DNA of 64,000 nt from Bifidobacterium sp. ESL0790. GTDB lineage: Bacteria; Actinomycetota; Actinomycetes; Actinomycetales; Bifidobacteriaceae. The notes beneath the pieces were generated by a model, which saw only the letters and a list, made by a program, of their open reading frames with translations, had not been told where the DNA came from and ran no database searches. Below are positions 19,851-37,376 of the stretch, piece after piece. The position numbers and the translations under genes are program-made. How positions within the stretch are numbered: position 1 is the first letter of the stretch; each line of letters starts with the position of its first letter. Location: positions 1,178,001-1,242,000 of the forward strand of contig NZ_CP113915.1 of assembly GCF_029395435.1 (NCBI RefSeq). Reading direction: 5' to 3'.

Positions 19851-20396
19851 ATGACTGGTAATGGAACCGGAGCCGAGGATCGTGTCATTGATGCGCTGTT
19901 TGCCAAGTTGGAGACGAACACCTTCGCGTCCCTGACCGTCTCTGAAATCGCCGCCGCAGCTGGAATCTCACGCAAGACGTTCTATCGGCATTTCAGCGAC
20001 AAGACAAATGTGGTACGTCGATATCTTGAGGGACTGATGTCGGAGTTGGTCGATGAGGACGAACAAATGGACGACATGTCGTTCGCCCAAGGAATCCGGC
20101 ATTATTTCATGTATTTCCAGGATCAGGCGCCGCGTCTCCGACTGTTACGGAACAATGGGCTGTTGGACTTGGCCCTGCCGATTCAAAACGAGGTGTTCGC
20201 CCGACGCTTCCCACAGTTGAACCTGCCCTGGCACGAGCCCGAATTGGGCGAGGAGCGCCTGGCGGACCTCTTCGTCGTAGGCGGCCTATGGAACGTCCTC
20301 ACCGACAGTCTAGATGCCAATCCACCAATCGCCCCAACCCATTTAGCCGCCACGCTCATGTCACAGGTCTCCAAGCGCGCAGCCAAACTGAGCTAA
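19851..20396 (+). CDS. TetR/AcrR family transcriptional regulator
   Basis: The N-terminal helix-turn-helix is typical of TetR: FASLTVSEIAAAAGISRKTFYRHFSDKTNVVRR spans about residues 22-55. The C-terminal ligand-binding part is not specific enough to name a ligand. I prefer ATG 19851 (181 residues, GAGG 5 bases upstream) over ATG 19809, which would add 14 residues. The gene is divergent from the HXXEE membrane protein gene, which is its likely target. The family usually represses its neighbour until a small molecule binds. Confidence 0.88.
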   Translation: MTGNGTGAEDRVIDALFAKLETNTFASLTVSEIAAAAGISRKTFYRHFSDKTNVVRRYLEGLMSELVDEDEQMDDMSFAQGIRHYFMYFQDQAPRLRLLRNNGLLDLALPIQNEVFARRFPQLNLPWHEPELGEERLADLFVVGGLWNVLTDSLDANPPIAPTHLAATLMSQVSKRAAKLS

Positions 20397-20553
20397 AATG
20401 CGGTTGACGATGACAAATAAAGCTGAAGCAACTGCCAAGAAATAATTATTTAGGTGATTACACTTTTCGCACAGAACAATTTGTCAATACAATCAAGACT
20501 CAAAACCAAAGTTCGCAACAAACTGAAAGTTATCAAAAACGAAATGTATGACT

Positions 20554-20584
20554 TTGCCGTTACTGATTTCAGAAGTATACTTCT
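20554..20584 (+). promoter_or_regulatory. Promoter with a palindromic -10 region before the AT-rich ATPase gene
   Basis: TTGCCG (20554-20559) and TATACT (20576-20581) are separated by 16 bases. The -10 lies inside the perfect 14-bp palindrome AGAAGTATACTTCT (20571-20584), 36 bases before the start codon. A repressor bound there would block the promoter. The AAATAATTATTT palindrome at 20440-20451 is a further feature of this AT-rich 224-bp gap. Confidence 0.5.
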
Positions 20585-20620
20585 ATTTAATAATATATTT
20601 TATTGAATGGAGAATTAAAT

Positions 20621-22828
20621 ATGCGTCATTTACAAGTAGAATTCCAGAATTGTCATGGCATCGGAAAGCTGAACGCGACTTTTAATTTTAGGCGATATTC
20701 TTCTTACGCAATTTACGCTCCAAATGGCACAATGAAAACTTCTTTCGCGCAAACCTTTGAGGATTTGAAAAATAATCAAGATACACAAGATGTTGTTTTT
20801 CCTTTAAGACAAAGTGTTCGCCGAATAGAAGATGAGTCCGGAAGCCCGATTGAAAGTTCTTCTGTGGTAGTTATTAATTCCTATGATGAAACTTTGGGCT
20901 TAACCGATGATGTATCAACTTTGCTAGTAGACGCAAATTTAAGAACTGAATACGGAAAAATCGAGTCCATACTTAACGAGAAACAAAATGAGTTACTTAA
21001 GAGTATTAAAGATACAGCTCATACCAATCTGCATCTAGATCAGATTTCTGAAGAAATTACTAATCTCTTTTCTTGTGAAAGTTTTATCGAAGCATGTACC
21101 ATAATTGAGAGCCAACTGAATAATTCTGATTCATCTTTCTCTGATATACAATTTGACGTAATTTTCAATGCGAAAGTTAAAAAATTGTTCGAAGCGGAAG
21201 ATTTTCAAAGATTGTTGGATGAATATATAACTAAGTTAAATTCTTTGTTAGTTGACTCTGATTTTTTCGGTCAAAACCATTTTAATTATTATAATGCGGA
21301 AAAAATTACCGAGTCACTATCTGCAAATCGTTTTTTTGATGCTCAACATGCTCTTTTATTGAGAAATAAAAATTCTGACGAAGAAAAAAGAGTGACGAGC
21401 AGTCAAAGCTTTCAAGAATTGATTGACTCTGAGAAGGAAAGAATTTCCTCAGATAAAGAATTGAAAAAAAGATTGAATAAAATGGGGAAAATTATTAATA
21501 AAAATATCGATACGAGAGATTTTTATGATTTTATTTCTTCACATGTGGAGTATATGCCAGAATTAGCAGATATTAAACAATTTGAAAAGAAAGTTTGGAT
21601 ATCTTACTTCCAGAAAAATGAAGAGCTTCTAAATGAATTGATGTGTTCGGTCGCTAATTCAAATGATGAAAAGGCTAGAATTGAAGAGACTGCGCGTCAA
21701 CAAAAAACTACTTGGGAAAATATAATCAATCTTTTTAATGCACGATTTTATGTGCCTTTTAAAGTTTCGATAAAAAATAGAACAGAAATGATAGTCGGAA
21801 AGGAAACAATTCCGCAGTTGTCCTTTGATTTCGTTGACAATGAACAACTTGAACCCATCCAAAGAGACTCCCTACTTAGAGTACTTAGTAACGGAGAGAA
21901 GAAGGCTCTCTATATCCTAGATATTCTTTTTGAAGTAGAAGAACGGAAGAAACTTGGAAAAGAAACTCTGTTCATCATTGATGATATTGCAGATTCCTTT
22001 GATTATAAGAACAAATATGCAATTATTCAATATTTAAAAGAGATGTCGGAAGAGAGTATATTTCATCTTATTATATTGACTCATAATTTTGATTTCTTTA
22101 GAACGATCGAATTAAGGCATGTAGTTAGTTATGGGTCTTGCCTTATTGCTTATAAGAATGATACCGGAATAGAACTTAAACAGGCTACTGGCATTAAAAA
22201 TCCTTTTGTTGCTGATTTTAAATTGCATCTGTATGATGACGCCACAAAACGAATTGCATCAATTCCTTTTGTCAGAAACCTTATTGAATACACTCGCGGC
22301 ACAGATGATAAGGATTACATGACACTTACGTCTCTTTTACATTGGAAAGGTGATACCCAAAAAATTAACCAAACTGATTTAGATAACATCTTCAATAGCT
22401 TTTTTATGGAAGAAGGTTCGTTTAACGTCAGTGGGCAGCCAGAATCTGTTGTTGCACTAATTTTCAAACAGGCTAATCGACTCTTGGAATCTCCAGAAAG
22501 CCCTAATCTTGAGAATAAGCTTGTTCTTACAATAGCGGTTCGTCTCGAAGCCGAAAGATATATGATCTCGAAAATCGACGATGATGATTTTGTGTCCAAT
22601 ATTTCCTCTGATCAAACTGGGGTTTTGTATGGACGATTTAAGACTCTCAATAATGGAAATCCTGAAAATAGAGAAATAGTAGACGAAGCTGTATTAATGA
22701 CTCCCGAAAGTATTCACGTAAACGCATTTATGTATGAACCTATTATCGATTTATCTGATTCGCATCTTAAAGAGTCTTACAGGAGGCTAACGGAACTTCT
22801 TGATGAAGAGAACAGTCATGAAGAATAG
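20621..22828 (+). CDS. AT-rich ABC-type/AAA ATPase, candidate anti-phage protein
   Basis: The start is ATG 20621 with GGAGA 7 bases upstream. The 735-residue protein has a split ABC-ATPase head: Walker A variant APNGTMKTS (33-41), an ABC-like signature LSNGEKK (422-428), Walker B FIIDDIADSFD (451-461) and the switch histidine in THNFDFF (H488). Between the halves lies a charged, helical stretch (about 90-400) that is probably a coiled coil, as in RecN/SMC-like and PrrC/RloC-type proteins. The remaining C-terminal 240 residues match nothing I recognise. By eye the gene is about one-third GC, far below its neighbours, and its codon usage is foreign, which indicates recent transfer. A defence role is inferred from this class of lone ATPases; no effector domain could be named. 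Confidence 0.85.
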   Translation: MRHLQVEFQNCHGIGKLNATFNFRRYSSYAIYAPNGTMKTSFAQTFEDLKNNQDTQDVVFPLRQSVRRIEDESGSPIESSSVVVINSYDETLGLTDDVSTLLVDANLRTEYGKIESILNEKQNELLKSIKDTAHTNLHLDQISEEITNLFSCESFIEACTIIESQLNNSDSSFSDIQFDVIFNAKVKKLFEAEDFQRLLDEYITKLNSLLVDSDFFGQNHFNYYNAEKITESLSANRFFDAQHALLLRNKNSDEEKRVTSSQSFQELIDSEKERISSDKELKKRLNKMGKIINKNIDTRDFYDFISSHVEYMPELADIKQFEKKVWISYFQKNEELLNELMCSVANSNDEKARIEETARQQKTTWENIINLFNARFYVPFKVSIKNRTEMIVGKETIPQLSFDFVDNEQLEPIQRDSLLRVLSNGEKKALYILDILFEVEERKKLGKETLFIIDDIADSFDYKNKYAIIQYLKEMSEESIFHLIILTHNFDFFRTIELRHVVSYGSCLIAYKNDTGIELKQATGIKNPFVADFKLHLYDDATKRIASIPFVRNLIEYTRGTDDKDYMTLTSLLHWKGDTQKINQTDLDNIFNSFFMEEGSFNVSGQPESVVALIFKQANRLLESPESPNLENKLVLTIAVRLEAERYMISKIDDDDFVSNISSDQTGVLYGRFKTLNNGNPENREIVDEAVLMTPESIHVNAFMYEPIIDLSDSHLKESYRRLTELLDEENSHEE

Positions 22829-22951
22829 CGTTTAAACTTGTAAAATTTAAGAAAAATATTGGACTTGTTCTACTGAGTGTTTATTTTGTAATGCAAGTTT
22901 TTTAATTGCTAATACGCTACTAACTTTTTAGAATTCATCAAGGAGAATTCG

Positions 22952-24475
22952 ATGGCGGAGATTAAATGCCCGAATTGTGGGAAAGTGTTCACGGTTGACG
23001 AGGCCGGGTATGCGGATATCGTCAAGCAGGTGCGGGACAAGGAGTTCGACAAGCAGCTTGGCGAGCGGCTTGAGGCGGCTGGGCGCGAGCAGGAGAAGGC
23101 TCTTGAGCTCGAGCGCAGCAGGGCCAAAGCGGAGTTGCAGAAGGCTGAGTCGAGCAAGGATGCGCAGATTCAGGACTTGCAGGCAAAGCTGGACGCCAGC
23201 GGCTCGGCCAAGGATATGGCGGTCAACGAGGCGGTGCGCCCCATCGAGAAGCAACGTGACGAGCTAAAGGCCCAGTTGGACCAGGCCAAGCTGGAGCAGG
23301 AGAAGGCGTTGGAGGTGGCTAAGGCCCAGTCTCAGACGGAGTTGCAGAAGAGCGTCTCCGAAAAGGAGGCCGAGGCAGCGAAGCTCAGAAACGAGCTTGA
23401 CGCTTTGAAGGCCTCGCGCAAACATGATCTGGAGTCCGCCATCGCCAAGGTGGAGAAAGAGCGCGACGGGCTGAAAAGCGACCTGGACAAGGCCTGTCTT
23501 GAGAGAGAGTCGGCCGACAGGCTCGCCAAGTCCACGTTGGAGTCGGAACGTCAGAAAATCACCGCCGAGAAGGACAAGGAGATCGCCGAGCTTCAGAGCA
23601 GCCTCAAACAGACAAGCCTCAAGCGGGAATTGGATCAGAAGTCGATGAAGGATCGTTACGAGGTGCAGCTCAAGGACCGGGATGACGAGATCGAGCGTCT
23701 GCGGGACTTCCAGACGAGGCAGTCGACGAAGATGGTCGGGGAGTCGTTGGAGCGTTTTTGCCAGGACGAGTTCAACAAGATCCGTCCGACCGCGTTCCCG
23801 ACGGCGTATTTCGAGAAGGACAACGACGCGCGAACAGGTAGCAAGGGCGATTTCATCTTCCGTGAGACGGACTCGGACGGCACCGAACTGGTGTCGATCA
23901 TGTTCGAGATGAAGAACGAGACCGACAGCGCATCCAGGAAGCGCAGGAACGAGGACTTCTTCAAGGAGCTGGACAAGGACCGCAGGGAGAAGAACTGCGA
24001 GTACGCGGTCCTGGTGACGATGCTGGAGCCGGACAGCGACCTGTACAACACCGGCATCGTGGATGTCTCCTACCGGTATCCGAAGATGTACGTGATCCGC
24101 CCGCAGTTCTTCATCCCCATGATCACGCTGCTGCGCAACGCCGCCCAGGACGCGTTGAAGTACAAGGTAGAGCTGAACGAGGTCAAGGCCCAGAACCTCG
24201 ACATCACGCATTTCGAGGAGCAGCTCGATGACTTCAAGGGCGCGTTCGGCCGCAACTACGAGCTCGCCTCGAAGAAATTCACGACCGCGATATCCGAGAT
24301 CGACAAGTCCATCGACCACCTCAAGAAGATCAAGGAGAACCTGCTCGGATCGGAACGCAATCTGCGCCTCGCCAACGACAAGGCGCAGAAAGTGACCATA
24401 CGCAGACTCACCCGGGGCAACGAGACCATGAAAAACAAATTCGCAGAAATCGAGGCGAATGGCAATGGTGACTGA
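22952..24475 (+). CDS. DUF2130 protein: zinc-ribbon-like start, coiled coil, PD-(D/E)XK-like domain
   Basis: The 507-residue protein opens with a single CPNC knuckle (residues 6-9), continues with an almost uninterrupted Glu/Lys/Ala coiled coil (about 25-255), and ends in the DUF2130 domain (about 257-440). Within that domain, E264, then KGD with D300, then FEMK with E319 and K321, are spaced like the acid-(n)-D-(15-20)-EXK signature of PD-(D/E)XK nucleases. The function of the family is unknown to me. It has AAGGAG before the ATG and normal high-GC codon usage, unlike the ATPase gene 123 bases upstream, so the two probably arrived separately. Confidence 0.85.
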
Positions 24476-36506: not shown

Positions 36507-37001
36507 GTGACGGAAATGCGGGCTGATGTTAACTGGCGAGCGCTGGAATGTTCAGTGACACTTTGTCGACGATGACAGACAATGCGAATAAGTCAACAGT
36601 CAACAACAGAAAAACTATAAACGTGACTGTAAAATAGCTGAGGCAACCCAGCAGTAAGCGCAGCTGCAGGAAATAACTAATATCAGCGGCACCAAACTCC
36701 TGACCTAACTGGCCAAATCCCGATAATGTACGTTATGTCAGATTTCGAAGAAATCTCGACATAACGTCGCTACGTTATATACCCAAGCTGCGCTTGGCTT
36801 ACATAACGTAGCGACGCCCCTACTGATGTTAATGCATAGGAATCTGTACATAACGTCTCCACGTTATGTACCAAACAAGCTTGCTTACATAACGTGGAGA
36901 CGCCCCTACTGATGATAATGTTCAGGAATCTTGGCATAACGTTTCGTAGACTACCTGCATAAACGCATTCGTCCACGGAGCTGCTTACAGCGCCGCTAAT
37001 T
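36507..37001. other. Convergent intergenic region
   Basis: This 495-bp gap lies between the 3' ends of the HAD gene (+) and a small membrane-protein gene (-). I see no credible coding frame. The first 220 bases show nothing distinctive. The second half (36730-36942) is the hairpin array described separately. Confidence 0.7.
36730..36942. repeat. Hairpin array built from ACATAACGT/ACGTTATGT repeats, 86-bp period
   Basis: Eight copies of ATAACGT or its complement occur. They form three adjoining hairpins. H1 pairs 36730-36739 with 36758-36767 and contains the inner AGATTTC/GAAATCT stem. H2 pairs 36765-36778 with 36803-36816 and encloses CCAAGC/GCTTGG. H3 pairs 36854-36870 with 36886-36902 perfectly over 17 bp. 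H2 and H3 are equivalent parts of two units 86 bp apart, joined by the shared linker CCCCTACTGATG-TAATG-AGGAATCT. Their outer stems differ by two paired substitutions (GTCGCTACG against GTCTCCACG) that keep both stems intact. A partial third unit follows at 36935. There is no U-run. Confidence 0.85.
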
Positions 37002-37376
37002 CTATTTTGCGTGGTGACGCTTGGTGAGGACGTCGTCGATGATGTCGCGCTGGGCACGATTGGCCTGCAGATACATCAGGACCAGCTCGGCCACGAAAAA
37101 GACGCCTAGAACGACGGCGGACGGGATGCCCAACATGGCGTAGACGTGACGGGCCGCGCCTTGGATTTGGTCGTATAGCAGCTTGTAGATGCCGTAGGGC
37201 GCACAGCACATGAACATCGAGACGATCTGCATGGCGATGACCGACCATTGCACCGTCTCGACCTGGCGATGGTCGTCCTTCTTGCGCAAGGCTCCATTCA
37301 CCAGGCAGATCGCGCAGATTCCCAGCGCCCACAACAAGGCGAACACCCAGAGGAATCCGGGAAGTATAGCGGCCAT
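37002..37376 (-). CDS. Small membrane protein of unknown function
   Basis: The 124-residue protein has an N-terminal helix (about 5-27), a charged loop (RKKDDHRQVETVQ), a second helix (43-65), and a third (80-105), ending in a basic tail. I do not recognise the family. AAAGGAA lies before the ATG. It is a single gene upstream of the MerR gene on the same strand, and its 3' end faces the hairpin array. Nothing in the sequence shows its role. Confidence 0.7.
   Translation of the reverse strand: MAAILPGFLWVFALLWALGICAICLVNGALRKKDDHRQVETVQWSVIAMQIVSMFMCCAPYGIYKLLYDQIQGAARHVYAMLGIPSAVVLGVFFVAELVLMYLQANRAQRDIIDDVLTKRHHAK

Follow-up and report, generated by a model that had tools for sequence, protein, structure and literature searches.

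What is the array of hairpins that lies in a convergent gap of the Bifidobacterium sp. ESL0790 chromosome? The window analyzed here is a stretch of 64,000 nucleotides (contig NZ_CP113915.1, positions 1,178,001 to 1,242,000). A sequence-only reading had placed the array at 36730-36942 and offered a structured RNA, a repeated protein-binding array, or a REP-like extragenic element as its identity. Eight exact ATAACGT/ACGTTAT half-sites are present within these limits, and they do form three adjoining hairpins, but the start has to be moved to 36716: the left end of the array lies within the chromosomal dif site (36716-36743, plus strand), which had been missed. Because the locus is identified as dif, the array begins with the XerD arm of that site, which is the first half-site. 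As judged from sequence, the array consists of dif and, adjoining its XerD side, one to several units of 80 to 90 bp in which XerD-arm half-sites are arranged as hairpins. Recombination at dif probably involves the array or left it behind.

The dif site and its setting

The limits of the XerC and XerD boxes were set by analogy with published dif sites, as follows.

36716-36726, plus strand: XerC box of dif, AATCCCGATAA
36727-36732, plus strand: central region of dif, TGTACG
36733-36743, plus strand: XerD box of dif, TTATGTCAGAT

The assignment rests on a 28-bp arrangement of XerC box, 6-bp center, and XerD box, found usually at one place per genome and opposite oriC. The dif proposed for Frankia alni, CACGCCGATAATGCACATTATGTCAAGT (PMC3025954), matches the site. 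In the source genome of 2,254,804 bases, dnaA lies at 2,253,776 and dif at 1,214,716, 53.9% of the circle from dnaA and hence about opposite it. Near 36-40 kb of the window, AT skew, positive before, becomes negative, and GC skew, mostly negative before, becomes positive, the latter in the reverse of the sense expected at a terminus. The source genome is predicted to encode XerD (368.4, above the NCBIfam cut-off of 329.6) and a XerC-like partner for recombination at dif; XerC is the best model for the partner, yet its score is below the cut-off (317.6 versus 335.2). The genome has four tyrosine recombinases, none of them at the dif/array locus.

With the array as the query (E ≤ 0.01), dif was matched in 108 of 112 congeneric genomes, the source genome included; in most of the 108, only the first 23 to 28 bases matched, once per genome. 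No match was found in G035, G056, G079, and G094 (genomes and loci carry our G and L numbers), the last three of which are 74 to 78% complete. Among 110 loci, which were fetched via this match and are therefore chosen for it, CCGATAATGTACGTTATGTCAGA is kept in at least 103 at each position, the next two T in 87 to 88, and the whole dif 25-mer is exact in 67. Two dif places each were seen in G016 and G048, where the second, dif-like site has an altered center and is possibly on a plasmid or an integrated element.

Several other features of the neighborhood were recorded. The word GGGGAG, the most polar of six tried, points toward dif in the window (17 top-strand versus 1 bottom-strand copies to the left, 2 versus 8 to the right), and GGGGAGG has 70 plus-strand copies before dif and 19 after it genome-wide; it is a candidate KOPS-like word that would orient FtsK. 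YTCCCC occurs 24 to 54 bp from the start of the dif core on the XerD side in 13 of 85 non-array loci, in 2 of 85 in the next 30 bp, in 6 of 85 in the following 30 bp, and in none upstream; several array units also precede CCCC. A small protein without a Pfam match is encoded at 37002-37376 on the minus strand. Of the 110 loci, 70 have a homologue of it close to dif, always directed toward the site; 58 of these are on the XerD side and 12 on the XerC side. The window has a GC content of 0.42 at 20001-24000, against about 0.55 to 0.65 around. Zot-bearing filamentous prophages (Zot, Rep_1) are carried by L036, L275 (G100), and G046, those of L036 and G100 sitting at dif between directly repeated XerD arms. 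Tyrosine-integrase-like phage sequence or its homologues adjoin dif at L034, L035, L193 (G044), and L250 (G075), for which dif is apparently the attachment site; excerpts of a report on bifidobacterial prophages (PMC6109161) make no mention of dif.

Units of XerD-arm half-sites

Copies of ACATAACGT with at most one mismatch number 15 in the window versus 5.1 expected, which none of 100 shuffles reached. All eight exact half-sites carry ATAACG, as on the XerD side of dif, and none carries ATAATG, as on the XerC side; by this match, the ACATAACGT copies are XerD-arm half-sites of dif. They make up two full units and the remnant of a third. Directly after dif comes d', an exact or near-exact inverted XerD arm plus the adjacent CGT. 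Then follow a 10-bp spacer and a XerD-like box (x'); beyond a loop, the box recurs in inverted form (x), and the spacer recurs as its reverse complement. The features below have no strand assigned.

36730-36767: hairpin H1, in which the dif XerD arm, with ACG of the central region, pairs with the inverted copy AATCTCGACATAACGT
36752-36767: d' of unit 1, AATCTCGACATAACGT, with one extra C
36765-36816: hairpin H2 (unit 1), comprising spacer, x', loop, x, and spacer reverse complement
36765-36774: variable 10-bp spacer between d' and x' of unit 1
36775-36785: XerD-like box x' of unit 1, TTATATACCCA
36796-36806: inverted box x of unit 1
36807-36816: reverse complement of the unit 1 spacer
36817-36840: linker after unit 1, CCCCTACTGATGTTAATGCATAGG, part of a 63-nt direct repeat (84%)
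36841-36856: inverted XerD arm d' of unit 2, AATCTGTACATAACGT
36854-36902: hairpin H3, the H2 of unit 2, with stem CGTCTCCACG/CGTGGAGACG
36903-36926: linker after unit 2, related to that of unit 1
36927-36942: inverted XerD-arm remnant of a third unit, without a hairpin, AATCTTGGCATAACGT

Units 1 and 2 are 86 to 89 bp apart, start to start. The 17-nt arms of H2 and H3 are 94% and 100% complementary. As had been claimed, the H2 stem CGTCGCTACG and the H3 stem CGTCTCCACG differ at two positions, and the opposite strands of both change to match; the linkers are also conserved, being part of the direct repeat, and similar ones are present in other species. Boxes x' and x only partly resemble the XerD box. 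The units hold no evident gene, and the ORF that crosses them (95 codons, 36770-37057, minus strand) is a mechanical call.

Distribution, spacing, and pairing

A genus-wide search with a model of the stem had been suggested along with the sequence-only reading. The covariance model of H2 matched 19 of 112 genomes, and the 49 places among the matches listed were all at dif, on the XerD side. A laxer scoring of the 25 array genomes gave 58 places in 21 of them, again all at dif and on the XerD side; it added G061 and G019 and missed G080, G038, G041, and G020, whose units were read by hand, for a total of 25 of 108 genomes with an array. Per genome, at most 56 (strict) and 150 (laxer) of about 255 to 655 first-look candidates were scored. 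REP/BIME elements are extragenic palindromes with many dispersed copies, and the array, made of extragenic palindromes in a convergent gap, looks like them in this respect, but it is not dispersed: each match of either search lies at dif, and the REP-like reading is rejected. A strict pattern of dif plus an inverted arm was found in 0 of 394 genomes across the class, a result that is uninformative because the source genome itself is missed (extra C in d').

No recognizable unit was found in 83 of the 108 dif-bearing genomes, so the array is dispensable for dimer resolution. On a midpoint-rooted, one-gene helicase tree of 110 genomes, built before the units of G038, G041, G020, and G019 were recognized, array genomes form a group of 13 around the source genome, in which G025, without a unit, is nested at low support; the others are G080/G098/G102, G028 with G052, a G061 group of five, and the single genomes G076 and G005. 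Such scatter implies that the array was gained several times or lost many times. All 13 species of the large group and all five of the G061 group have kept a proximal unit, suggesting that this unit is used and not merely left behind.

The array has strong folding potential. RNA folding gave z scores of -9.3 (plus strand) and -9.7 (minus strand), reached by 0 of 200 shuffles, and single-stranded DNA folding gave -8.2/-8.4 for H1 plus H2 and -8.8/-8.7 for H3. Spacing is nearly fixed: among 31 exact ATAA/TTAT pairs lying 4 to 16 apart in 21 loci, the spacer is 10 in 28 and 8, 12, or 13 in the rest, while its letters vary, and the 10-bp length recurs in the distant G028 and G061. In the four loci recognized later, it is 10 in G041, G020, and G019 and 9 in G038. 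The inverted arm lies 4 to 9 bases past the dif core in 18 of 110 loci and 17 bases past it in one more (L222); L205 has a partial inverted arm at 54 bases. The 3 nucleotides beside d' mismatch the central region of dif in G041, G020, and G019, ruling out that d' always continues this region.

That base pairing is selected had been proposed from H2 and H3 alone, together with a covariance check on homologues, and compensation exceeded shuffles on most measures. Across the 17 units proximal to dif, pairing at the six outer stem pairs reaches 90.2%; covariation is 0.871 versus 0.191 ± 0.044 in shuffles (0/500) and at most 0.299 when slid, and double-changed cells number 37 versus 11.4 (0/500), although the sequences are related and the shuffle counts are not probabilities. 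Two of five measures, both cruder, do not exceed shuffles: 5 pairs changed on both sides versus 4.2 (145/500), and there were 14 further pair types versus 12.0 (94/500). Among 138 outer-stem pairs from 23 of the 25 array species (left out were G080, which lacks a right arm, and G038, which has an indel), 124 are Watson-Crick, 1 is G-T, 3 are A-C, and 10 are other; whole-arm shuffles averaged 65 Watson-Crick pairs and never exceeded 90 in 10,000, again a count and not a probability. Two double changes are also seen between orthologous single units within the G061 group. Among the 17 proximal units, the inner box varies at one position only, which is a plus-strand A-C mismatch in 11 of 17. We conclude from these comparisons that the pairing is kept through coordinated change; the near absence of wobble pairs makes it DNA-like rather than RNA-like.

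More than one unit was recognized in 11 loci. There, pairing is better in unit 1 than in later ones (mean, 5.36 versus 3.35 of 6; within-locus permutation, p 0.0065), but unit 1 surpasses all later units in only 5 of the 11, and the order is reversed in L012; the proximal units of G089, G085, and G087 have 4 of 6 outer pairs. The distal units look like older, decaying copies.

Possible roles and known relatives

We tentatively favor the reading that the array is a DNA element recognized by XerD, able to fold as a cruciform or a single strand, and retained beside dif. From the features described above, we infer that the array is bound by XerD, folds in the cell, and plays a role in recombination. 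XerD, perhaps with XerC, would recognize the half-sites, and d', the 10-bp spacer, and x' would act as one composite site with a fixed 21-bp pitch. The inverted repeat of the spacer would let a strand fold, as a cruciform or a single strand, presenting a duplex Xer box on a hairpin that, by analogy, would be like CTXφ attP(+) and integron attC. The proximal unit, being kept, is proposed to be an accessory site or a folded attachment site that serves recombination at dif or is still used by it. Among the three identities first offered, the protein-binding array comes nearest, as the XerD arm of dif is what is repeated.

There is a small but real chance that the array is a plain double-stranded XerD-binding array, such as an SMC-unloading platform, in which the palindromes result simply from binding sites being inverted. 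This reading would suit a row of XerD-like boxes that adjoins dif at the terminus with a fixed pitch of 21 bp, and XerD unloads SMC at the terminus (PMC12322038, citing Karaboja 2021); XerD-arm-like words with at most 3 mismatches are also commoner in the source genome than in its reversed control (85 versus 52). Yet binding to duplex DNA requires no spacer complementarity behind box x, and complementarity is what is kept; dif aside, no copy of CGTTATGTCAGATT with fewer than 2 mismatches was found in the source genome. The array may resemble the XerD SMC-unloading site of Bacillus subtilis (PMC12322038) in sequence and in lying in the terminus region, where XerD acts, but its half-sites are clustered, touch dif, and are palindromic, with covarying stems.

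Similarly improbable, though far from negligible, is a relic or active Xer-using mobile element (IMEX-like), repeatedly inserted at dif, whose cargo was lost or never present and whose hairpin is the folded attachment site. Several observations are consistent with this: the distribution is scattered, with G005 and G076 single species among relatives without a recognized unit; units are tandem and distal ones poorer; dif is followed by an inverted dif-like site, as after CTXφ integration (PMC3089051); Zot-bearing filamentous prophages exist at dif; and the dif arm of G005 is TCAGATT versus TCAGAAA in its sisters G010 and G047. On the other hand, no copy was found with cargo or away from dif, single units persist in five related species, unlike a dead relic, and the boxes are XerD-like, whereas CTXφ exchange is by XerC. 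The array is also not part of a filamentous phage or similar element, as no cargo was seen and matches lie only at dif, nor a relic of the Zot-bearing phages, since those of L036 and G100 end in direct XerD arms without such hairpins; a Zot homologue was found in 2 of 112 genomes (G046 and G100), neither with an array.

Elements bearing such a site together with cargo were found neither in viral contigs, phage and plasmid records, nor genus genomes. Hairpin searches of viral contigs gave 10 matches and one match, none with a paired outer stem by eye; among the further viral loci listed, which are not exhaustive, a script kept only L163, which has no stem. Viral contigs gave 0 matches to dif plus an inverted arm, and phage and plasmid records gave only short or partial matches to the array. 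An array that excludes prophages from dif was also rejected, as G020 and G041 carry both a unit and a XerC-side integrase homologue (about 29% identity).

A plausible origin of the array is a single-strand element that exploited Xer and had captured the XerD arm. We think it unlikely that the units are a minimal, gene-less hairpin cassette that inserts beside dif via host XerCD with exchange on the XerD side and so builds short arrays, with fresh proximal and decaying distal units. If true, this cassette would be a system resembling integrons but lacking their integrase, would stand as a living intermediate between dif and attC, and its exchange would be the mirror image of the XerC exchange of CTXφ.

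We give little credence to a mutational by-product, that is, function-free palindromes made and corrected by template switching where forks meet. The palindromes are near dif and wobble intermediates are nearly absent, as such a process might leave them, but 11 of 17 proximal units retain the imperfect pair GTTATATA/TACATAAC, which automatic correction should erase, and the spacing is nearly fixed. Nor is there a general enrichment of palindromes beside dif: in 92 loci then classed as array-free, seven of which were later found to carry a unit, the mean best palindrome score was 6.9 on the XerD side, 7.3 on the XerC side, and 5.9 far away.

A structured RNA or terminating hairpins at the convergent 3' ends of the flanking genes is very unlikely: RNA folding is strong, in 15 of the 21 array loci recognized at that stage the minus-strand neighbor is directed toward dif, the A-C mismatch would be G-U on the minus strand, and T runs follow the hairpin in L222 and L220, but the covarying stem holds a single G-T pair, no Rfam model matched at its gathering score, no T run follows H2 or H3, and the word repeated is tied to the XerD arm of dif. 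Neither hairpin was called as an intrinsic terminator, in keeping with the earlier view that the array is not an obvious one, whereas a weak stem of 5 pairs within H1/H2 was (36757-36769, minus strand). A 3'-untranslated-region element of the minus-strand neighbor was rejected because that gene was not found in the fetched flank of 6 of the 21 loci.

Insertions of the IS1202 family also target the neighborhood of dif or pdif, in one orientation (PMC10132070); these are 1.5-kb insertion sequences lying 5 bp from the XerC site, whereas the array has 80- to 90-bp units on the XerD side. Integron attC sites have boxes and extrahelical bases (PMC4792948), and the array is like them in being a hairpin with inverted boxes and imperfect pairing at a conserved place. 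It differs in having no integron integrase and no cassettes and in being located at dif. An attC identity was rejected, with two tyrosine recombinases tested scoring 157.6 and 108.2 against the integron integrase cut-off of 265. In layout, integrons have a tandem attC array next to a double-stranded primary site, and here too a tandem array adjoins a double-stranded primary site.

The dif site is among the best-studied recombination sites. In the open-access literature, to which our search extended (subscription papers lie outside its coverage), we found no description of a structured array touching dif. CTXφ offers a close comparison: its strand folds to expose a Xer site, and its integration leaves a functional dif and two nonfunctional dif-like sites (PMC3089051). 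Like CTXφ attP(+), the array has opposed dif-like boxes beside dif and a foldable strand whose stem bears Xer boxes, and a functional dif is followed by an inverted dif-like site; the over-long spacer is 12 bp in CTXφ attP1 and 10 in the array (PMC3089051). The distance from dif to the inverted box is a few to about 40 nucleotides in arrays and about 90 in CTXφ. Unlike CTXφ, the array comes without phage genes or cargo and in tandem units, and its boxes are XerD-like only, no XerC-like box having been seen. If Xer enzymes use the array, it would reveal how a site for dimer resolution comes by folded single-strand partners, a step that has been proposed to connect Xer, CTXφ-like phages, and integrons (discussed in PMC4792948). 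The array appears to be a new variation on the folded sites associated with Xer and dif, for which the mechanism given here is a proposal.
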